Part shown: piece by piece, positions 2 to 15,700 of the stretch
Position numbering within the stretch: the first letter of the stretch is position 1
How the letters are laid out: every line of letters begins with the position of its first letter
DNA from: a virus
Direction: 5' to 3' (one strand)
DNA length: 21,363 nt
IMG/VR virus record: IMGVR_UViG_3300006920_000309
Coordinates: 1 to 21,363 of that record
The notes under the pieces: model-generated
Told to the model about the DNA's origin: nothing
The model's input: only the letters and a program-made list of their open reading frames with translations
Database searches by the model: none
Position numbers and translations under genes: made by a program

Positions 2-1703
2 ACGCTTGCTAACAACACAACTGGTAGTAGTAATGTGGCAATTGGTATGGCTGCTTTACTTAATAATAGTACAGCTTCTAACAACACAGCGGTTGGTTAT
101 CAGTCTTTAAGGGCAAACACCACGAGCGGATATAACACAGCGGTTGGAAACCTTGCACTTACCTCCAACACTACGGCGACATTCAACACTGCTGTTGGTC
201 ATGGTGCGCTGACAGCCAATACCACTGGTACAATTAACACGGCAGTGGGCGCAAGTGCCTTGGCAGCCAACACCACTGGAAACAGTCTGTCGGCTTTTGG
301 GCATGATGCCCTACGGTTTAACACAGAAGGCGCATATAACGCCGCCTTTGGTAATTTATCACTGTTCTCAAACACCACAGCAAGTAACAACACAGCCGTT
401 GGTTATAATGCTTTATACGCAAACAACACAGGCACTCAAAACACTGCCTTGGGTGCTTTTGCTTTGGACGCTAACTCTACAGCCTCTAACAACACCGCGT
501 TGGGCTTTCAGGCTTTAACCGCAAACACCACAGGCGCAGGAAATGTCGCAGTAGGTGCTGGTGCGCTAACTTTAAACACTACGGGGCAAAGAAACGTAGC
601 AATAGGCCATTTAGCCTTTGACGCCGCCAATACAGGCAGTTATAGCGTTGCGGTGGGTTATAGTGCTTTAACCGCAAACACTACTGGAAACTTTAACACC
701 GCAATTGGTGACTCTGCCCTTGCTTCAAATACCACAGCAAGTAACAACGTAGCAATAAGTTACGCTGCACTTAATGTGAATACGACAGGGTCTAATAACA
801 TAGCTATAGGCTATTCTGCTTTAGCCGCAAATACGGCAGGCGCTTCCAATGTTGCAGTGGGTCAAACTGCGCTTGACGCTAATACTACAGGCTCTGAAAA
901 CGTAGCCATTGGCAGCGGGGCTTTAGGCGCAAACACTACCGCAAATGATAATACCGCAGTCGGAGGAGGAGCTTTAGCCGCTAATACTACAGGCTATGAC
1001 AACACCGCCATTGGTAGAGTTGCTTTAGTGGCAAATACAACCGGCGCTAATAACGTAGCAATCGGTCGGAATGCTTTATTGGCAAACACCACAGGCACAG
1101 GTAATTCTGCTCTGGGTAAAGGTTCTTTAAGCGGGAATACAACAGCAAGTTACAACACAGGACTGGGAGAAAACGCTTTACTTACTAACACAACAGGAGC
1201 TTCTAATACTGCTGTTGGTAATTCAGCTTTATACGCAAATACGACCGCATCTAACAACACAGCAGTTGGTACAAGTGCTTTAGGCGTAAACACCACAGGC
1301 GACCAGAACACCGCTGTTGGAAAATCTGCGGGTGCGTCAAACACTACAGGTGTAAGAAACACGTTTTTGGGTGCGGGTGCGGCTCCATCAAACACTACAG
1401 GAAGTTATAACGTAGGTGTTGGCGGGGCTGGGTCAGACAACTATAACGTGTTGAATAACAATACTTCAGGCGCTCAGTTGACGGCTGTTGGGACGGGGAC
1501 TTTAGCCAGAAATACAACCGGAATTGATAACACCGCTCTTGGTGCATATGCTTTAAATAAAAACACCACAGCATCTAACAACACAGCAGTGGGAAGAAAT
1601 GCTTTAAACGCAAACACCACAGGCTCTGAAAACACTGCTCTTGGTGTAGGGGCTGGGGAGGCGATAACAACTGGCGTTAATAACATAGTTATTGGCTACA
1701 CTG
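2..1703 (+). repeat. About 33 tandem 51-bp (17-aa) fibre-shaft repeats
   Basis: Each unit is 17 codons. The strongest positions are Ala-Leu at the start, Asn-Thr-Thr in the middle and Asn-Thr-Ala-Val-Gly near the end. The phase is held almost without error. One unit near 1432-1500 carries six extra residues. Two flavours alternate irregularly, N-T-T-G and N-T-T-A-S-N-N, and the second reuses nearly the same DNA word, TCTAACAACACAGC, several times. The pattern resembles beta-roll or beta-helix repeats of trimeric adhesin heads and phage fibres. The array continues off the left edge, so the total copy number is unknown. Confidence 0.9.
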
Positions 1704-2254
1704 CTGGATCGCACGACGTTGACCTTACAACAGGTATTGGTAATATCCTTATTGGAAATTACGCAGATACGACTACGGCAGACGCAGCTTACGCAAATGT
1801 TATTGGGTATAATGTTAGTGGTGCGGCGGGATACACAACTTTAGGCAGTTCGGGTTCAGCCATTAGAGCCGCACACGGCGAAGCAACATGGGCAACAGTA
1901 TCTGACGAACGCTACAAGAAAGACATTGTAGACTCTACAACAGGTCTGAGCTTCATCAATGCACTTAGACCCAGAACCTTCAAGTACAGGACTTTAGGTG
2001 AACTACCTGAAACCTTTAGCGCCTATGAAGCTGACTCAACCGAAGTCTTTAAAAACTCTAAAACTAACCACGGCTTTATAGCTCAAGAAGTCAAAGCAGC
2101 AATTGATGCAGATGCAAGCATTAAAGATGGCTTTAGACTCTGGGACGATAGAGAAGATGGTTCTCAGGAAGTTGCAGAAGCAGCACTAATCCCCGTACTT
2201 GTTAAAGCCATACAAGAACTCACAGCACGACTCGAAACCTTAGAAGGAAAATAA
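2..2254 (+). CDS. Tail fibre with 17-residue repeats and C-terminal S74 self-cleaving chaperone (5' partial)
   Basis: The reading frame is open from base 2 and already inside the repeat pattern, so the true start lies upstream of the window. The GTG at 35 is only a Val codon within a repeat. About 33 repeats of the type A-L-x-A-N-T-T-G-x-x-N-T-A-V-G-x-x fill 2 to about 1703, followed by a linker. From about 1890 there is an intramolecular chaperone (peptidase S74) domain. Its signature S-D-E-R-Y-K-K-D-I starts with the Ser codon at 1901-1903, and the domain ends in a helical E-L-T-A-R-L-E-T-L-E-G-K tail. In this family the chaperone drives trimerisation of a fibre or spike and then cuts itself off just before the Ser. 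The protein is therefore probably a trimeric receptor-binding fibre with a long repetitive beta shaft. The S74 call is secure. The receptor and the identity of the N-terminal attachment domain cannot be seen. Confidence 0.9.
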   Translation, partial: TLANNTTGSSNVAIGMAALLNNSTASNNTAVGYQSLRANTTSGYNTAVGNLALTSNTTATFNTAVGHGALTANTTGTINTAVGASALAANTTGNSLSAFGHDALRFNTEGAYNAAFGNLSLFSNTTASNNTAVGYNALYANNTGTQNTALGAFALDANSTASNNTALGFQALTANTTGAGNVAVGAGALTLNTTGQRNVAIGHLAFDAANTGSYSVAVGYSALTANTTGNFNTAIGDSALASNTTASNNVAISYAALNVNTTGSNNIAIGYSALAANTAGASNVAVGQTALDANTTGSENVAIGSGALGANTTANDNTAVGGGALAANTTGYDNTAIGRVALVANTTGANNVAIGRNALLANTTGTGNSALGKGSLSGNTTASYNTGLGENALLTNTTGASNTAVGNSALYANTTASNNTAVGTSALGVNTTGDQNTAVGKSAGASNTTGVRNTFLGAGAAPSNTTGSYNVGVGGAGSDNYNVLNNNTSGAQLTAVGTGTLARNTTGIDNTALGAYALNKNTTASNNTAVGRNALNANTTGSENTALGVGAGEAITTGVNNIVIGYTAGSHDVDLTTGIGNILIGNYADTTTADAAYANVIGYNVSGAAGYTTLGSSGSAIRAAHGEATWATVSDERYKKDIVDSTTGLSFINALRPRTFKYRTLGELPETFSAYEADSTEVFKNSKTNHGFIAQEVKAAIDADASIKDGFRLWDDREDGSQEVAEAALIPVLVKAIQELTARLETLEGK

Positions 2255-4999: not shown

Positions 5000-6868
5000 A
5001 TGCCTCTTCAGAAGATATTATTTAAATCCGGTGTAAATAGGGAGCGTACAAGCTATTCTAATGAAGGCGGATGGTACGAGTGCGATAAAGTCCGGTTTCG
5101 CCAAGGTTTACCTGAGAAAATAGGTGGCTGGCAGCGTATTTCTTCTACTACCTATCTTGGGGTATGCCGTTCATTATGGAACTGGGTTACGTTAGGAAGT
5201 ATCAATCTTTTAGGAGTTGGTACTAATCTAAAGTTTTATCTGGAAGAAGGCGGTGCGTACAACGACATTACGCCTATTCGAGAGACCACGGCTGCTGGGG
5301 ACGTTACGTTTGCTGCTACTAATGGTAGTAATGTAATAACCGTAGCCGATAACGGGCACGGGGCTACCAACGGTGATTTTGTCACTTTTAGTGGGGCAGT
5401 ATCTCTTGGAGGTAACATCACAGCGGATGTGCTTAACCAAGAATACCAAGTCGATGCGCTACTTGATGCTAATAGCTTTACAATTATTGCAACCGCAACT
5501 GCAAATGCTTCGGATACCGGAAACGGTGGAAGCTCCACAGTAGGGGCATACCAAATCCATGTCGGCGCTGCTTACGCAATTCCGCTTGCTGGTTGGGGTG
5601 CAGGCACTTGGGGCGGCGGTGTCTGGGGTACTGGGCTTGTTTCAACCGAAGCTATCCGCCTATGGAGCCAAACAAACTTTGGTGAAGACCTTATCTTTGG
5701 GCCTCGTGGCGGCGGGATGTATTACTGGGACGCCACTGCGGGTGTTGATACCCGTGCCGTACCCTTGCAAAATTTAGCAGGGGCATCGGATGTTCCAATA
5801 GTGCAGAATGTTATTGAAATTTCTGATATTAGCCGTTTTGTATTTGCTTTTGGAGCAAACGAAATTGCATCCGCCACAATCAATCCTATGCTTGTTCGGT
5901 GGTCAGACCAAGAAAACCCAGCAAATTGGACCCCTGCGGCAACAAACCAAGCAGGAAGTATCGTATTATCTCGGGGCACGCGGATCGTAGCAGCAAAGCA
6001 ATCCCGCCAAGAGGTGCTTGTTTGGACCGATTCTGCCGTGTATTCCATGCAATATGTAGGCGCACCTGCTGTTTGGGCGGCGCAACTTGTCGGAGAAAAC
6101 ATATCTATCGCAGGGCAAAATGCCGTTAGTTACGCTAATGGTGTGGCCTATTGGATGGGTAAAGATAAGTTCTATAAGTATGACGGACGCACGCAACCGC
6201 TAGTATCTGATCTACGTCGTCACGTATTTAGTGACTTTAATACCCAACAATACGATCAAGTTTTTGCAGGTACAAACGAGTCGTTTCACGAAGTTTGGTG
6301 GTTCTACTGCTCTACAAACCAAACCGATGTTGATAAGTATGTAGTCTATAACTACATGGAAAACACGTGGTACTACGGCAATTTGTCCCGTACAGCATGG
6401 CTAGATTCTGGGCTACGTAACTTCCCATTAGCGGCTACGTATAGCTACAACCTAGTCAATCATGAGGTTGGCACGGACAATAATGAAACAGATACAACGC
6501 TTCCGATTGCAGCTTCTATATCTTCCTCACAGTTTGATTTGGACGACGGGCACCAGTTTGCGTTTATTTGGCGGGTACTTCCTGATATTACATTTACAGG
6601 TTCTACAGCCACTGCTCCTGTCGCAACGATGACTTTGTTACCTCTTGCAAACTCAGGTTCAGGGTATAACGACCCCCTATCGCAAGGTGGAATTAGTTCA
6701 GCAAATATTACGCGAAGCGCGGTTTTACCTATAGAACAATACACTGGGCAACTCAATACGCGCATACGCGGTAGGCAGCTTGCAGTAAAAATTGAGTCTA
6801 CTGCGTTGGGAGTTTCGTGGCAGCTTGGCACTCCGCGTATTGATATGCGGCCTGACGGGAGGCGGTAA
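5000..6868 (+). CDS. Beta-propeller-like tail structural protein (nozzle or tail-tubular-B/P22 gp10-like)
   Basis: This 622-aa protein opens with I-L-F-K-S-G-V-N-R-E-R-T-S-Y and W-Y-E-C-D-K-V-R-F-R-Q-G-L-P-E-K-I-G-G-W. I know this N-terminal signature from podovirus-type structural proteins. Residues about 110-180 form an inserted beta domain (G-D-F-V-T-F-S-G-A, L-N-Q-E-Y-Q-V). A Gly-Trp-rich stretch (G-W-G-A-G-T-W-G-G-G-V-W-G) follows near residue 200. The remainder is mostly short beta strands with repeated aromatic Y/W positions, consistent with a propeller. In the T7 gp12 and P22 gp10 groups such proteins form the tail nozzle or hub. The family call is by signature and composition; the exact counterpart is uncertain. 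The stop overlaps the next start (TAATG). Confidence 0.7.
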   Translation: MPLQKILFKSGVNRERTSYSNEGGWYECDKVRFRQGLPEKIGGWQRISSTTYLGVCRSLWNWVTLGSINLLGVGTNLKFYLEEGGAYNDITPIRETTAAGDVTFAATNGSNVITVADNGHGATNGDFVTFSGAVSLGGNITADVLNQEYQVDALLDANSFTIIATATANASDTGNGGSSTVGAYQIHVGAAYAIPLAGWGAGTWGGGVWGTGLVSTEAIRLWSQTNFGEDLIFGPRGGGMYYWDATAGVDTRAVPLQNLAGASDVPIVQNVIEISDISRFVFAFGANEIASATINPMLVRWSDQENPANWTPAATNQAGSIVLSRGTRIVAAKQSRQEVLVWTDSAVYSMQYVGAPAVWAAQLVGENISIAGQNAVSYANGVAYWMGKDKFYKYDGRTQPLVSDLRRHVFSDFNTQQYDQVFAGTNESFHEVWWFYCSTNQTDVDKYVVYNYMENTWYYGNLSRTAWLDSGLRNFPLAATYSYNLVNHEVGTDNNETDTTLPIAASISSSQFDLDDGHQFAFIWRVLPDITFTGSTATAPVATMTLLPLANSGSGYNDPLSQGGISSANITRSAVLPIEQYTGQLNTRIRGRQLAVKIESTALGVSWQLGTPRIDMRPDGRR

Positions 6869-7773
6869 TGGCGGTAGATAATACTAGATATAACGTACCG
6901 TTCCGTGCGCCAGCATTACCATACCCACCTAAAGTTTACGACGCGCAATCGTTTGAAGAATTTAACAAAGTGCTGCGTATCTACTTTAACCAGCTCGACA
7001 ACGCATTGAGGAACGCTATGGCAGTTCAAGAACCATACCAATTACAAGTATCTAAAGGCCAAGTGGTTGGTGCGTCTCCTGAGTATAAGTTTGGGTTTAA
7101 CCCAGATGTAAACGGTGTAGAAGAAAGTATCTGGGTGCATGGTGGGGATTATCCGTGGGCTACGGCGGCGTTTACTGCGTTTATTAGTAGTTCTAGCACC
7201 GCAGATATTAGCGCAGGTACAGGTGCACAGACTGTTACTATAGAAGGCTTAGACGAAAACTACGCCTCTCAAAGTGTCACTGTCGATATGAACGGGCAGA
7301 CTCAGGTGCAGATTGGCGATGCGTCAGGATGGCTTCGGGTAAATCGTGTGTTTGTTGCTACGTCAGGTAGTGGGGGCACTGCGGCAGGGGACATATATGT
7401 TTCTGTTTCTGGAGCAACTGCGGGGGTACCTACAGGTGATATATACGCAAAAGTTGCGGCTGGGGATAACCAAACACAGCAGGTGGTATATACTGTACCC
7501 GCAGGCTCAACCTTCTATACAGACGACGTTACGTTTACCGCAGCTATATCTTTAGCTAACAAAAACGTCACCGCTAAATTCGTCTCTCGTGAGTTTGGGT
7601 CTAACACGTTTAGGACGCGCCTAGTACAAACGCTACAAAGCAATTTCCTGCTAGTACCGTTTGAATACCCTCTGGCTTTACCAGAAAAAACAGACGTTGA
7701 ATGCCGAGCGAGTACCGATACTACGAATGTAGAAATCGGCGCGTCTTTCCAAGGCGTCTTAATAGCAAACTAG
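6868..7773 (+). CDS. Beta-rich virion structural protein (adaptor or decoration type)
   Basis: This 301-aa protein is translationally coupled to the previous gene (TAATG) and preceded by GGGAGG at 6857-6862. The N-terminus has an amphipathic helix, F-E-E-F-N-K-V-L-R-I-Y-F-N-Q-L-D-N-A-L-R. From about residue 90 the chain is beta-rich with low-complexity Ser/Thr/Gly turns: W-A-T-A-A-F-T-A-F-I, I-S-A-G-T-G-A-Q-T-V-T-I-E-G-L-D-E-N-Y, then T-Q-V-Q-I-G-D-A-S-G-W-L-R-V. I recognise the segment 'AGTGAQTV..GLD.NY' followed by 'TQVQIGDASGW' from phage structural proteins with beta-sandwich domains. The place in the virion is not known. The helix could dock to the tail protein encoded just upstream. Confidence 0.7.
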   Translation: MAVDNTRYNVPFRAPALPYPPKVYDAQSFEEFNKVLRIYFNQLDNALRNAMAVQEPYQLQVSKGQVVGASPEYKFGFNPDVNGVEESIWVHGGDYPWATAAFTAFISSSSTADISAGTGAQTVTIEGLDENYASQSVTVDMNGQTQVQIGDASGWLRVNRVFVATSGSGGTAAGDIYVSVSGATAGVPTGDIYAKVAAGDNQTQQVVYTVPAGSTFYTDDVTFTAAISLANKNVTAKFVSREFGSNTFRTRLVQTLQSNFLLVPFEYPLALPEKTDVECRASTDTTNVEIGASFQGVLIAN

Positions 7774-7843: not shown

Positions 7844-8155
7844 ATGAAATTTGACTTTCTCGAACTATTTAACGCCGTGGCCGCTGCACAAAAAGCGGTC
7901 ACAAAAGACTACATAGTAGCTGAATCCCTCGACGTACCAATTACCGAAGATGCGACAAGTCTTGATAGCCTAGACGTTACTTTGACGTTCTTTGTGCTCG
8001 GAGAAGCCTTTGGCGTACCCGAAGGTGAGGAAATGGACGCTTTATGGCCCACATCTACTATTGGCGCAGTGGGCGCGTTTATTGAAGAGTATAAGACTGT
8101 AAATCCTGAAGACACCTACGATAGCATCAAAGCATTAGTGAGGGATTTAGCATGA
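7844..8155 (+). CDS. Acyl carrier protein (phage-encoded)
   Basis: This 103-aa acidic protein has AGGAG at 7832-7836, 7 bases before the ATG. Residues about 35-84 align by eye with helices II-IV of type II ACPs: E-D-A-T-S-L-D-S-L-D-V, then F-V-L-G-E-A-F-G-V-P, then T-S-T-I-G-A-V-G-A-F-I-E-E-Y. Ser42 in the D41-S42-L43-D44 motif is the expected attachment site for 4'-phosphopantetheine. A C-terminal extension of about 20 residues (after Y83) exceeds the usual length of 75-80 aa. An ACP carries growing acyl chains as thioesters. A phosphopantetheinyl transferase would be needed and is not in the window, so the host enzyme must supply it. The gene overlaps the ketosynthase by ATGA, which strongly supports a working pair. 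The fold call is by motif only. Confidence 0.8.
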   Translation: MKFDFLELFNAVAAAQKAVTKDYIVAESLDVPITEDATSLDSLDVTLTFFVLGEAFGVPEGEEMDALWPTSTIGAVGAFIEEYKTVNPEDTYDSIKALVRDLA

Positions 8156-9270
8156 TATATCTTACAAAATGTAACACCGCGTACACTACCGAAACAAAAC
8201 TTATTACTGACGTCCCCTACCCACAACATGCTCATATAATACCAAGTACGTTTAGGCGGGCAAAAAGTGGGATGAAATACCCTCCACATACCTTATTGGA
8301 AAGTTTGGTTGATGAGGAAACTATAAACTACGTACGTGACAATCCTGTAAAAGGTAAGACAGGGTTTATATTTGCTGCGGGTAACCAAGGTTGGATGGGT
8401 AATAACGGGCGGTACGACAAAAACCCCGACGCCGAATTGCACTATAAGGTAAAAATACCTTTTATTGTGCTCACTAATATCTATGCAGGGCGAATCGCCA
8501 GCATGTTTGGAGTACACGACCATGTATCAACCGATGCTAGCGCCTGTGCTTCTAGCTTAAAAGTCCTCATGGAAGTTCAAAATTTAATGAACAACTTTGA
8601 GTTTGACCGTGTTATTGTGTTTACAGGTGAAGACGCAGTTAATAATCTGACGTTAGAGTTCTTTGGAGAAGCGGGTGCTAGCTTGCAATATAAAGACGAA
8701 GGAGAGCGACAACCATCAGCATTCGACGCCACGAACCAAGGATTTTTCCTTGGGCAAGGTGCAGCACTAGCTATTTTTGAAAAGGAACACGCTGGTATGG
8801 TAGCTCCGATGGCTAAATTTCTAGGCGCGTATAGTTCTGCGGAAGATAGTACAAACCCTTTGGGCCAACGAAACGACGGTTCTGGGTTTAGTAAAGCTAT
8901 CGAGGGTGCATTATTTGTAGCCAAAGCACACAAAAATGAAGTAAGATTGGTAAAGACGCATGGAACTGGCACGCCAGTCAACAATGCTGCGGAGAAATCA
9001 GCACTATTGCACTCCCTTAATGAGTTTGTAGCGACATCGTACAAACCTCGGATTGGGCACACAATGGGTGCAAGCGGCTTGTTGGAGACTGGATTGTTGT
9101 TAGAAGACATGAAAACTGGCTACGTGCCTAAGATTCTAAATAGGACACAGGATGATTCTGTGTTCTTGTCTGCTGACGCCCCCGTACCTGATGGATTACT
9201 GCTTAGTTTAGCTGCTGGTATGGGCAACATATACTCCGCCGCTATTTTTGCACCGGAGGTAAGTTCATGA
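8152..9270 (+). CDS. Beta-ketoacyl-ACP synthase (FabB/FabF-type condensing enzyme)
   Basis: This 372-aa protein shows the complete Cys-His-His site of FabB/FabF and polyketide ketosynthases: Cys132 in D-A-S-A-C-A-S-S, His270 in T-H-G-T-G-T-P, and His303 in R-I-G-H-T-M-G-A-S-G. Lys298 lies five residues before His303, as in FabF. G-F-F-L-G-Q-G-A-A-L-A-I-F-E-K at about 199-213 matches another core element. Spacings of 138 and 33 residues resemble FabF (140 and 37). The enzyme would extend an ACP-bound acyl chain by decarboxylative condensation with malonyl-ACP. Oddities: the N-terminus is about 30 residues shorter than FabF, and the C-terminal G-F-G-G-T-N loop reads G-M-G-N-I-Y, with Met357 at the position of the FabF gating Phe. 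The gene overlaps both neighbours by ATGA; GAGGGA is at 8140-8145. It looks intact and not decayed. Confidence 0.9.
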   Translation: MIYLTKCNTAYTTETKLITDVPYPQHAHIIPSTFRRAKSGMKYPPHTLLESLVDEETINYVRDNPVKGKTGFIFAAGNQGWMGNNGRYDKNPDAELHYKVKIPFIVLTNIYAGRIASMFGVHDHVSTDASACASSLKVLMEVQNLMNNFEFDRVIVFTGEDAVNNLTLEFFGEAGASLQYKDEGERQPSAFDATNQGFFLGQGAALAIFEKEHAGMVAPMAKFLGAYSSAEDSTNPLGQRNDGSGFSKAIEGALFVAKAHKNEVRLVKTHGTGTPVNNAAEKSALLHSLNEFVATSYKPRIGHTMGASGLLETGLLLEDMKTGYVPKILNRTQDDSVFLSADAPVPDGLLLSLAAGMGNIYSAAIFAPEVSS

Positions 9271-9734
9271 AACTCGTAGACAGTAAAGAGAAATTGTTGG
9301 GTGGTCCAGAGATTATCGCTCAATCCATCTATAGTATGGATAATCTACCATACCCCAAGGAAGCTATCTTAGCTTCTATTGCTGCGGAAACAACACTGCC
9401 AAACACGGACATAGTTCAGATTGGTAACACGGTGTTTGTATCCCATGTGGGCAAAGGGAAAAATAGTAAGAAGATGGTAGGCCGTGCGTTCAATGTAGAC
9501 ACAGGACGTAACTTTGTAAAAAACGGCTTCAAGTATTTTACTTACTTGCAGAAAAGGGGTATTACACATTATACAACCGAATTTGATGGTCCGGTGTTCC
9601 TCAATGGGTTTAAGATTTTTCAACGCCGTGCGAAACAACAAGATACCCAGATCGGTATAGGTATGGACCCCGAAACTAATCAGTACGTGGTCTATATGCG
9701 ATTAGGTAAAGAACCATTAGCACGGGGTTTATAA
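9267..9734 (+). CDS. Protein of unknown function, third gene of the ACP-ketosynthase cassette
   Basis: This 155-aa protein has a strong GGAGGT at 9255-9260 and an ATGA overlap with the ketosynthase. It shows a helical N-terminus (P-E-I-I-A-Q-S-I-Y-S-M), then a mixed alpha/beta core: V-F-V-S-H-V-G-K-G, M-V-G-R-A-F-N-V-D-T-G, F-K-Y-F-T-Y-L-Q-K-R-G-I-T-H-Y-T-T and D-T-Q-I-G-I-G-M. The end (Y-V-V-Y-M-R-L-G-K-E-P-L) is a beta strand. I recall similar proteins near internal-virion genes in marine phages, so it may belong with the structural genes downstream rather than with the acyl chemistry. The alternating strands and helices could fit a GNAT-like fold, but I see no clear acetyl-CoA loop and do not claim that. 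Only one base separates its stop from the next start. Confidence 0.75.
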   Translation: MKLVDSKEKLLGGPEIIAQSIYSMDNLPYPKEAILASIAAETTLPNTDIVQIGNTVFVSHVGKGKNSKKMVGRAFNVDTGRNFVKNGFKYFTYLQKRGITHYTTEFDGPVFLNGFKIFQRRAKQQDTQIGIGMDPETNQYVVYMRLGKEPLARGL

Positions 9735-9735
9735 A

Positions 9736-12700
9736 TTGTCCGCAGTCGTAAAAGTAGTCAAAAAGGTAGTCAACTGGGTCGGTGACGCCATCGAGGATGT
9801 CCTTGATTTTGCCGTTGATGAAATTATTGAGCCTGTTTTTGAATTTGTTGGCGACACTGTAAAAGCCCTTATGGACGACCCGCTTACAACGATTGCCAAA
9901 GTAGTTGCTATTGCTACAGGTAACGCATGGGCTATACCCCTAATTGACGGAGCTTCTACCGCCGCCAAGGGTGGGGATTTTGGGGACGTAATGAAGTCCG
10001 TTGCGATTTCCTACGTTGCTGGAAAAGTTGGCGGAGAACTTGGTGACTGGGCAGGTGAAGCTGCTGGCAACGCTCTTGGCGAAGGTGTATCTGCGGGTAC
10101 TCGTGAGCTTGTGGCTACCATGGTTAGCCAAGGTACTGTAGGCGCAACAACAGCAATTCTATATGGAGAAGACCCATTTGAGGCATTTGCACGGGGTGGT
10201 ATTACTGCCGCTGTATCCGCTGCTATGGGTAAGATTGGCGAAAAGATTGGGTTCGAGAGCACTGTAACTGACCCAGTTACAGGCAAAACTACTACTCGTA
10301 CCATACCAAATGTAGTGCAGAACATGATTAGTACCGCTCTTGCAGCGGAGCTTACTGGTCAAGAAATTACTCCTGCACTTATGGCGGGGGCGCTTACACG
10401 CGGCCTTATTACCGCTGAATTAGTACAAGGGTACATCGACAAAGATCAGTCCATGGGTGACCGTGAGATTGGCTACGTCACTGCGGCTATCCAGCGCACT
10501 ACCGCAATTGCTTTGTCAGGCGGTTCAGGAGAACAAGCCGCCGCTGCGCTTCAAGGTGTTATGTCTGCCTACGGCATGGAAGCACTTCATGATGCTATTG
10601 ATAACTCCGGTATTGGAGATTTCATAAACAATAGCATCGACAAAATGTCGGGGGATTACCAAGAAACTGTACGTATTGCCGACGAACTTGACGCGCAGGT
10701 ACTTAGCCGCAACGCCGCTTACGAAGGATATGAAAGTCTACGTACTGAAATAAACGACGACCTATCTGCGCTTGAGACTATGCAAGGGCAGTTAGAAGTA
10801 GCGCGTGAAAACGCAATGGACGACCGCGAAAGGGGCGGCAGGCAAGGACAAACGGTTTACGACAATTTGTTAGCGGAATATCAAGAAGCTGTGGCAGATT
10901 TAAACGCAAAGTACGCAGAATACAAACCGAGGATGGATGCTTACGAGCAACAAATAATTGATGCCCAAGACAAATTTACTGAGTTAGAAACTGAACTTGG
11001 AGTAGCACAAGGTAACTTACAAGTAAGTGCTGGACGTCTTAACGAAGAATTACAACCTGTCTACAGCGCCGCAGAGCGTGCGTATGTAACTACGATGTCG
11101 CCCAATTTTAATGAGGCAGAGTACAAGTATCTTAACGGTTTATCTGATGATACAGATGCCTTTACTCATTACCTTACGAACGGGCAGCACGGCAACGTAT
11201 ACACAAACCAAGCCGATTACGACCGAGCAATAAATAACAATCGAAACCAAGCAATAACAAAGATTCTTGAAGCGGCGGGTATTGATCCTAGTGGGCTTAG
11301 TACCGAACAAATGGGGCGTATTGTAAATGTTATTACCGATACCTACGGAACCCCGCAAGAATTAGAAGAACTTCTAAACAACGAAGCTATGCTTAACGGT
11401 TTTGCAGGAGCACTATCGAAGGCGGTTGCTGATGCGTCTGAATACTCTAATGCTGTATTGGATGATACTACTCGCGCAAGATTAGAAAGTCTTGGGTTTG
11501 ATACGGCTGGTGGTATGGACGGAGAGGCCCTAACTAACGAAGAAAAAGCCGCCCTGCACACCGCAGATAACCGTGGGTCTAACGAAATTTCTCTCGGCGC
11601 GGATACAACTTGGCAAGATGTTGCTGATAATAACGCGGTAGTAACTTACGACGCAAACGGTAATCGTGAATGGCGTAATGTTTCGGTCTCTACAATTGAG
11701 TGGGACCCTGAGTACGGGCGAGTTACTGTAAACACATCGTACGATGAACAAGGCCGTGCGTGGACTACAACTCGTACAGGTGAAGACGGCAACTTAGTAG
11801 AGCCAATGCAGATAAACATCTACTACGGCGCTGACAGTATGCAGGGGGGAGACTACCTCAATACCATCAAAAACGCTGGTAAAGAGATGGGTTACGCCGA
11901 CTCTATGATCGACTTTGTATCTGGAGTGCTGGATTACGCAAAAGAAAGCGGTAACGAGTGGATTATTGATACTGCGGCGAACGTGGTTAAAGCTGGTGGT
12001 GGTATTCTCGGTGCCTTTAATGGTGTTGTAGCCCTTGCGGGAATTGCACCGCCGGACACTGCGCTAGGTAAATTTGCAGACACCCTTGTTAAACTTGGTG
12101 AAAATACAAACACCGATGAGTACAAAGCTAACCTAGCTGAAATACAACAAATGATGGGTCAGCCAACAGACCCTAACGCACCATGGTACGACCGAGCATT
12201 AGAGAAAGCAGGGAACATACTGGGTGCTTTTGCTGAGCACCCCACAACTTTCCTTGCCGAATACATTGGGGTAGAGGCTACACAAGAACTTGTACCGTTA
12301 CTAATTGGTGGCGGAGCATCCCTTGCAGCCAAGGGCGCTGCACGTTTCGCAGGTATGGGCGCTCAAGTTTCTGCCCGAATTGGTTCAAAGGTTGGTATTT
12401 CCACCGCTATTGCCACGGATGTTGCTGAAAGTTTCGGTGGTACTGCTAGTGAAGCGTACGATACTGCGTTAGAAGTAGCCTTAAAGACTGGTATGAGCGA
12501 AAAAGACGCAAAAGCGTACGCTCTAAACTTAGCTGTTGAAACTGGCACCGTGGCGGCTTTCATGACTGCCGCAACTATGGGTGTCGGTGGCATGGCGCTT
12601 GAGAAAGCCCTTATCGGTGACGGCGTTGGCGGTAAGATGGCGACGGTCTTTGGGGAGCTAACAAGCCGTGCGCTCGAAGGCGGCAAGATTATGATAAAAG

Positions 12701-15700
12701 AGGGCGTCACCGAATCTATAGAAGAAGGTGTCGCAACTGCATATCGTGAAGGACATCTCTATCAGATCGACCCCACACGTGACGTAGCTGGTGAAGTAGC
12801 TGGCGCAGCTTTGATGGGCTTCATTGTTGGTGGCCCCGTTGCTGGCGGTGCATACGGTGTGGCTCAAACAGGTGACGCAGTTTCTAATGCTATCTCGGCT
12901 ATTAATCCACAAGTAAATGCAATTATTAAGAACACTGTTGCCGCAGGAATTACAGCAGCTTCACTTAACGCAGCGACGGTAGAGTTAAATAATCTTGGTA
13001 TCACTGACCCCGTGATACAGAATAACATTATGAACAATATCAGTGACTCAAATTATACGAGCACTGAAGAAGTTAGCACTGCGTTTTCTTCAAACCAAGA
13101 CTATAAACCTACACAAGCAGAGATTGATGCTCTTGTAGGTGCAAAAGGCGATGCTGACATTCAAGCACGGGTAGATACCTATATCGACCCACGATATACC
13201 GATCCCGCAGAAGCGGCGAACATGTTCATAGATACCTTTGGGTATACGCCAACTGACGCAGAAATAGCTCAGTTTGTAGGGCAGACTGCCGAATCAACTC
13301 AAGAAACTGCGATTGGTGACTACGTTGATCCCCGCCAAACTACCGAAACAGAAGCACGTGCGTTCTTTGACTCGCTAGGATACACCCCGACAGATGCCGA
13401 AGTAGCGCAGTTTGTAGGGCAGAATAGCGAAACGACTCAGCAAACCGCTGTAGGCGCGTATGTAGACCCACGATATACCGATGCTGGGGAAGCACGTGCG
13501 TTCTTTGACTCGCTAGGATACACCCCAACGGATGCCGAGATTGCTAACTTTGTAGGACAAACGGCGGAAAATACGCAGGAGTCTAACATTGGTACCTATG
13601 TTGACCCACGGCAAGTAACCGAGGCAGAAGCACAGCAATACTTTGCAGACCTTGGATATACACCTACCGATGCCGAAATCGCTGCGTATGTGGGCCAAGG
13701 TAACGCAAACTTTGCAAGCACCACCCAAACTCAAGTCGGCACTTATGTTGATCCTCGGCAGATAACAGACGCAGAAGCTACAGCCGCTCTACAAGAGCAA
13801 GGCATAGCTAACCCAACAGCAGAACAAATTGCTCAATTTGTAGGTCAAGGAGATGCAAACTTTGAAACTACGGGGATTGAAAACTTAACTGCATATGTTG
13901 ACCCTCTTATTACTACCTACGAGGAAGCTAAACAGTTCTTTAATGATCTAGGGTTTACACCTAGCAAAGAGCAAATTGAACAATTTGTTGGGGCTACTAC
14001 CGAAACAGAACAACAAGCAGCAATTGCTACGTTTGTTGATCCACTTTATACCGATGCCGCCGAAGCTAAAGCATTCCTTGAAAATCTAGGATACACCCCG
14101 ACTGATGCTGAAGTTGCTCGCTTTACTGGGCAGGTTAACGAGGCCCAGCAAGAAACTGCTATTGGAGAGTACGTTGATCCACGATTGGTTAACGCTGAAG
14201 AAGTTGCCGCTGCCTATGAAGCCCTAGGGTTAGAACGCCCAACTGATGCGGATATTCAGGCGCTCATCGGGCAGTACATGGAAAGTGATCTGGCAGGTAA
14301 AGCTGAAGAAAACCTCCCGACTGCACGTTACAACTCTATTATGGACATTCTTAACAACTTTACAGGTGAAGCAGGTGTATCTGAAGAGATGCAAGCGGCC
14401 CTTGATATTGTTAAGAACGACATGATTAACGCACTTGGTGATCTTGGGCTTGAAGTTGCAGCAATCGACCAGACCGTTAATAGCCTCACCGATGCTGTTG
14501 GTGCCATAGCTAGTGGTGATGCTGATGCCACAGGGCTATACGGGTATATCGACGAGGCAGTTCAAAACTTAAAAGACGCTGGGCTTACTAACGAGCAAGT
14601 CACTGAAACTATTAATGAAATTATTGGTAGCCCTGCTACAGGAGACGCAGAAGCTACGGGTATTTACGCTACGCTTGATGCTCTTGGCACTAATATCGAC
14701 AACCTCAATGACCTTAGTGTTGACGATGTAAATAGCATTGTTACTGCCGCAATTGGTAGCTTAGAAAATCTAAGCGAAGAAGATGTATCTGGTATTGTTG
14801 CAAATATTGTAGGTCAACCAGCAACTGATGACAGTGAAGCAACAGGGCTGTATGCAACGATTGGCGATCTTAATAACATTAGCGAAGAAGAAGTTACCGC
14901 TATTGTTACTGAAGCCCTTGGTGGGTTAGAAAATATCAGCACAGACGATGTTTCAAATGTCGTAAACAGCATTATTGGTAACCCTGCAACAGATGATACA
15001 GATGCGTCGGGCATCTACGGATATATAGACAACACTACAGACGAAATCTTAGCCATTCTAGGCAACCCTGCAACGGGTGACGTGGACGCCACAGGGATAT
15101 ACGGATACATCGACTCTGCGGTTGACAGTTTAGGTACCGATTTAGCTACCCTTGCAGGCAACGTAGGTACTGCCGCTGAGTACGACGCAGACGGTAACTT
15201 ATTAACAGAAGCCACGGGTATCTACGCACAAGTAGACGCGCTTATGGCGCAAGGTATGACCAACGCAGAAGCTATTGCGTCTCTTGCCGTAGAGTTTGGT
15301 GTCGCAGTTACTGACCTTACAAACTTAATTAACGAACAAACTAGCACTATTACTGAAGATGTCGGTGAAGTTGCAGAAGATGTAAGTGACATCGCAGGGT
15401 TGCTTGGGGAACCAGCCGTTGCGGATAACCCGTTAACAGAAGAAGACGAATCAACTGATCCAACCGGATTATTTGGGATTATTGCAGGATACGAAACTGC
15501 GGGACAAGAACGCGACGAAGCTATTGATTCTGCAATTAGCGATCTTGCAGAACAGTTAGGTACAACCAAAACAGATATTCTTGACCAGCTAAACCTTGGT
15601 TTAGACCAGATAGAAACTCTTATTACTAATAGCCAAACTGGGCTGGAAGAAAAGATTGACAAAGCCGTAGAAGATATTGGCGTTGACCTCGGGGATATGG

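Follow-up and report, generated by a model that had tools for sequence, protein, structure and literature searches.

Gene Organization of the Locus

The window, i.e., the whole stretch of 21,363 bases of DNA that was analyzed, is an IMG/VR virus record originating from an uncultured tailed phage, and the genes described here are encoded on its + strand. At the beginning of the window (2-2254), a tail-fibre-like protein is encoded that contains repeats of the N-T-A-V-G type (51-nt units according to TRF) and whose C-terminal end resembles an S74-type chaperone. Holin-like and M15 endolysin genes are located between this gene and the gene for a virion/stabilization protein (phrog_3287; 5000-6868), which is followed by the gene for a phrog_8198 protein with no function assigned (6868-7773). 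Downstream of these two genes lies a cassette of three genes. The first (7844-8155) codes for an acyl carrier protein (ACP) of 103 amino acid residues, recognized by profile, predicted fold, and homologues, in which Ser42 forms part of an LDSLD motif at the N-terminus of helix II. The second (8152-9270) codes for a β-ketoacyl synthase (KS) of 372 residues, recognized by Pfam, profile, and alignment, with Cys132, His270, Lys298, and His303 as active-site residues. An ATGA stop/start overlap in the sequence (8152-8155) provides for translational coupling of ACP and KS. The initial annotation had described this pair with the overlap and an intact active site; both ORFs are present at these positions, and Pfam, profile, and fold evidence agree on their identity. 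It had regarded the pair as a two-gene unit, however, and had overlooked that a third gene (9267-9734) belongs to the cassette; this gene overlaps the KS gene by another ATGA and codes for a 155-residue protein with a predicted fold of the GNAT type.

The ACP-KS-third gene cassette sits inside an operon of virion genes. Downstream of it, a giant protein of 2269 residues is encoded (9736-16545), which is presumed from its position and size to be an internal or ejection protein. Within its gene, a 138-nt tandem repeat (13351-13610) encodes repeated units of the type YVDPR..EA..FF..LGYTPTDAEIA.FVGQ. Further presumed ejection proteins are encoded downstream of the giant protein on the + strand, and one ORF in this region (17387-18241) shows a weak match to the DNA ejection protein phrog_4287 (E 0.0018).

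The Acyl Carrier Protein

Judged by sequence profiles and the predicted structure, the ORF at 7844-8155 is an ACP. On its own, the window ACP has no Pfam match and does not reach the cut-off of PF00550. When 33 relatives were compared with this family, six of them gave weak matches (best E 0.0032), and most members are below Pfam detection. Missing PF00550 is a matter of a detection criterion and not of structure or chemistry, and we maintain the identification as ACP. A profile built from the 33 relatives and searched against all PDB sequences (E up to 10, 100 sequences returned) found ACPs or ACP subunits as the best 60 of 100 matches, with a best E of 1.3e-4. That structure prediction should yield an ACP fold had been set as a test beforehand, and the AlphaFold2 model (pLDDT 91.4) indeed presents the four-helix ACP fold, in which helix II (residues 42-56) begins exactly at Ser42. 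The Foldseek matches listed for this model are ACPs, ACP subunits, or complexes containing one (prob 1.00, best E 0.013). As the domain is small, E-values are modest (0.013 and up), and it is the agreement among the matches, rather than the E-value, that carries the argument for the predicted fold.

In cellular ACPs, acidic residues of helix II form the docking site for many enzymes. In an alignment with E. coli AcpP, the position equivalent to Glu41 of AcpP is acidic in none of the 194 phage ACPs scored, and the position equivalent to Glu47 is acidic in 30% of them. Both positions are acidic in all six cellular ACPs adjoining cellular KSs, a small control set, and they are also acidic in the ACPs of the PDB profile alignment. 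With the reservation that the control comprises six sequences, the absence of the acidic contact equivalent to Glu41 suggests that the phage ACP has a private partner and does not serve the general fatty acid supply of the host. No match to the ACPS family was obtained in 17 phage records, i.e., no phage-encoded phosphopantetheinyl transferase (PPTase) was found in them, and therefore the host would have to load the phage ACP, as the initial annotation had assumed.

The Ketosynthase

By sequence criteria, the ORF at 8152-9270 is a β-ketoacyl synthase of the KAS I/II (FabB/FabF) superfamily. It scores 58.8 bits with Ketoacyl-synt_C (PF02801) and 45.9 bits with ketoacyl-synt (PF00109), the cut-off being 20.8 in both cases, and the KS profile finds FabF structures in the PDB at an E of 3e-24. 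The same profile also matches KSs of biosynthetic pathways, for example the actinorhodin KS, as well as AmcF. In the alignment with E. coli FabF, residues Cys132, His270, Lys298, and His303 correspond to Cys163, His303, Lys335, and His340. According to this alignment, the phage KS lacks most of the N-terminal segment of FabF (VVVTGxGxxSPxG), and the gating residue Phe400 of FabF is replaced by Met357. With the FabF equivalog model (TIGR03150), the phage KS reaches 108.8 bits compared with a cut-off of 493.75. The phage KSs are monophyletic (support 0.81), with a long stem leading to their clade.

A pattern-based scan of 84,980 species genomes yielded, among the matches listed, a single close match, which is itself located on a phage contig with the same three genes; the other matches listed are cellular KSs of about 30% identity, none of them above about 34%. 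Since no close cellular relative of the KS is found among these matches, a recent acquisition from a host is not indicated, and the missed fabF cut-off likewise disfavors a plain FabF captured from a host. The phage contig in question, L168 (JAGYJQ010000016; 37.6 kb), had been binned in a Balneolaceae MAG, which may be a hint at the host or a binning contamination and is weak as host evidence.

Distribution and Conservation of the Pair

Hundreds of loci were collected, six of the seven scans covering viral contigs and one covering genome contigs. At least 569 loci with the unit were found in a single scan. The ACP-KS unit is very common in environmental, water-borne, uncultured phages; the earlier impression that such a pair is unusual holds insofar as no published report of it was found, but not with regard to its frequency. 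A search for adjacent ACP-KS pairs at the same place, as had been proposed, found the ACP ORF directly upstream of the KS at each of the 352 loci whose upstream DNA was long enough, a number that includes overlapping pulls of the same contig and collapses to 210 distinct pairs. The overlap of the two genes is exactly 4 nt in 203 of the 210. This invariable adjacency, together with the loss of the contact provided by Glu41 in AcpP, supports the proposal of a dedicated carrier-synthase unit within a phage structural operon. Such a unit may, as the initial annotation supposed, spare the phage competition with the host ACP. Asp41 and Ser42 occur in each of the 197 distinct ACPs, whose median pairwise identity is 32%, and all 207 distinct KSs keep the four active-site residues at pairwise identities as low as 44%, so that neither the attachment serine nor the catalytic residues are ever lost in these homologues; part of this conservation exists by construction because scan patterns partly held conserved motifs (GHT in three scans, DSLD in one), while two patterns were free of any catalytic residue and the ACPs at all loci found with KS queries were unselected on their own motif.

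Median dN/dS ratios are 0.06 (KS), 0.08 (third gene), and 0.12 (ACP), and the ACP-KS pair is under strong purifying selection. The distance matrices of the three proteins correlate with each other (r 0.80-0.87; none of 999 permutations reached such values), the Mantel r for the third gene and the KS being 0.87, which argues that the three genes are inherited together.

Among 50,697 phage records, a close KS is encoded only in MW202545, a complete, circular environmental genome in which the KS is 52% identical and an ACP adjoins it; no cultured phage with the unit was found among the phage records scanned. One might suspect that the ORFs arose by chance or that host genes were wrongly assembled into viral contigs, and the fact that the window ACP alone has no Pfam match would fit such a misreading. 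The constant adjacency, the virion genes that surround the pair on hundreds of contigs, the circular MW202545, the monophyletic KS clade, and the low dN/dS ratios rule it out for practical purposes.

A more serious alternative is that ACP and KS are classical auxiliary metabolic genes that boost or redirect type II fatty acid synthesis of the host, thereby affecting chain length or membrane fluidity late in infection, and that their position in the operon sets merely the timing of expression. Genes of this kind are indeed reported from viruses: fabF/fabG/fabZ reads occur in deep marine viromes (PMC10653327), three roseobacter prophages contain acpP, fabF, and fabG arranged as in bacterial operons (PMC8224337), and the Alteromonas phage R22Y has a lone ACP (PMC11705849). 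Two large relatives (contigs of 62-65 kb, 44 ORFs scanned) show no lipid enzyme or other fatty acid enzyme among the 25 Pfam families listed of a total of 27, and so FabD, FabG, FabZ, and FabI of the host would have to finish the chain if the pair acted in this way. However, the lack of the acidic contact in 194/194 ACPs should weaken docking to precisely such host enzymes, the phage KS is far from the cellular KSs listed, and the pair always occupies the same place in the operon, which opportunistically acquired metabolic genes do not. We therefore regard a role in host fatty acid synthesis as possible but rather doubtful. In the head gene region of the relative L318, an ORF (L318:13298-13672) looks like the source of a Pfam match to Cpn10 (GroES-like), and a gene for chaperonin 10 is annotated in MW202545 at a comparable position.

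The Third Gene and Relatives Without the Complete Cassette

The AlphaFold2 model of the third gene product (pLDDT 92.6) displays the GNAT order of elements, and the top matches obtained with it in Foldseek are GNATs (prob 1.00, best E 3e-4); a PDB search with its sequence gave no credible match. Most of its relatives in viruses are phage proteins without a name; a single "Internal virion protein A" appears lower in the list. Across the family, the β4-α3 loop reads NxDTxxNF and not R/QxxGxG/A, the signature of acyl-CoA binding, so that, in spite of its fold, the protein is not a standard CoA-dependent GNAT. Residues S6, E41, G53, N54, T55, D78, and N82 are invariant or nearly so. Toxin-activating acyltransferases of the RtxC/HlyC type employ acyl-ACP, and the known RtxC structure is a GNAT fold devoid of CoA elements (PMC8339906). 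The third gene product is not assigned to this type, as an invariant histidine comparable to His23 of HlyC is missing. Homology to the annotated GNAT of roseophage CRP-901 was also considered and rejected, the profile comparison being negative (prob 1.4%).

In three contigs, the KS is gone whereas the ACP with its DSLD motif, the third gene, and an ATGA junction are retained. Two of them share one deletion type (L118:1890-2739 and L135:4610-5459), and the third represents a second type (L120:3983-4864). Phages can therefore do without the KS in certain settings, after which the ACP remains for some time, although three contigs are a small sample. That the ACP outlasts the KS hints at a putative ACP partner other than the KS. 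In another group of contigs (L147-L167), the GNAT-like gene occurs without ACP and KS (e.g., L147:4658-5462), and a β-rich gene of about 110 residues occupies the slot between the stabilization protein and the GNAT-like gene. The conserved residues of the GNAT-like protein are identical with and without the pair; therefore, the gene does not depend on the pair. As this clade is nested among bearers of the pair in the tree, its lack of the pair suggests a loss. In three phages with a related virion protein (L003, L004, and L085), this part of the operon or its surroundings contains, in place of ACP and KS, genes annotated as 2OG-Fe(II) oxygenase or glycosyltransferase.

Retention of the ACP after deletion of the KS, and the location of the pair among virion genes, would also fit a non-catalytic role, in which holo-ACP and KS together would assist folding or act as a scaffold during virion assembly, comparable to mitochondrial ACP within complex I or to the ACP of E. 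coli with MukB. A scaffold does not need Cys132, both histidines, and Lys298, yet these are invariant in the KSs, and we judge such a role to be very improbable. Another conceivable function is the formation of a small acyl or polyketide-like molecule, i.e., a signal, cofactor, or toxin-like lipid, without modification of proteins or membranes. KS and ACP by themselves make up the core of a minimal type II polyketide synthase, the actinorhodin KS and AmcF are among the matches of the KS profile, and autoinducer synthases and N-acyl amino acid synthases with GNAT-like folds use acyl-ACP. The cassette contains no tailoring enzymes, though, and its GNAT-like gene also exists without the pair; formation of a small molecule thus seems improbable to us.

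Possible Function of the Unit

The reading that we prefer, and to which we give somewhat better than even chances, is that of a private, catalytic type II KS-ACP unit used late in infection. As the active sites of the pair never decay, these phages probably make their own acyl group at this late stage. Of the steps that such a unit would perform, sequence data support the preservation of a serine that is a target for PPTases, the preservation of a full condensing site, translational coupling, and co-inheritance. During late expression, the PPTase of the host would convert the phage ACP to holo-ACP, which host enzymes would charge with malonyl and acyl groups. The phage KS might then catalyze on its own ACP a decarboxylative Claisen condensation or a priming step in which malonyl is decarboxylated. 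With the acidic contact of helix II lost, the acyl group carried by the ACP would probably go to a dedicated acceptor and not into the pool of the host.

For the last step, the leading candidate, which we put forward tentatively and by analogy, is the transfer of the acyl group onto a virion or ejection protein of the phage or another phage-specific acceptor, possibly with participation of the GNAT-fold neighbor. In a more specific version, ACP and KS would belong to a self-contained viral acylation system and build a particular acyl group for an internal virion or ejection protein, perhaps attached by the GNAT-fold protein, as a lipid anchor with which the injected protein crosses the host envelope; we consider this version unlikely. 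Several points speak against the preferred reading: the GNAT-like gene is found without the pair, the KS is lost in three contigs, the third gene product has no histidine like that of HlyC, and the control set for the acidic contact is small.

Lipid and acyl chemistry of phages are almost unexplored, and hundreds of environmental contigs keep a carrier-condenser pair in their virion operon, which raises the question of whether phages run acyl chemistry of their own late in infection and on which acceptor. An acylated virion or ejection protein, if true, would be a new step of virion maturation. If instead the membrane is the acceptor, the pair would constitute a dedicated viral route into lipid synthesis of the host.

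Comparison with Known Systems

The pair represents a phage-specific family that has no name in Pfam, NCBIfam, or PHROGs. In PHROGs, the KS corresponds to phrog_35856 and the ACP weakly to phrog_28189, both of which are listed with unknown function. Searches of open-access journal articles turned up none that describes a unit of ACP and KS which is specific to phages and placed in a structural operon. Like FabF (TIGR03150, PF00109 and PF02801), the phage KS is a thiolase-fold KS with a Cys-His-His site plus lysine and has an ACP as neighbor, as in acpP-fabF operons; it differs from FabF in its identity of about 30%, in the N-terminal segment being mostly missing, in the replacement of Phe400 by Met357, and in belonging to a phage-only clade. 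The phage ACP shares with ACPs of the AcpP type (PF00550) the four-helix fold and the DSL serine at the start of helix II, but it possesses a C-terminal extension of about 20 residues with an extra helix, and its equivalent of Glu41 is never acidic.

Like the window, the roseobacter prophages (PMC8224337) and R22Y (PMC11705849) are cases in which an ACP and/or a KS is carried by a phage or prophage. The prophage genes follow the bacterial fab order fabG-acpP-fabF (PMC8224337), R22Y carries an ACP alone (PMC11705849), and neither study describes a pair that is specific to phages and sits in a structural operon. The closest counterpart is MW202545 (Manatee Spring Caudoviricetes; UOF78446-UOF78413), which has the order ACP-KS-third gene at the same place. 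Its KS is annotated as 3-oxoacyl-ACP synthase, its ACP and third gene are annotated only as hypothetical, and no published discussion of them was found. The third gene product resembles RtxC/HlyC in combining a GNAT fold devoid of CoA elements with a position beside ACP-dependent chemistry, which is an analogy only, and differs from them in that their sequences do not match and a conserved catalytic histidine is absent from the phage protein. In terms of known systems, the unit is a type II ketosynthase with its carrier in an unexpected place, within the virion operon of a phage.
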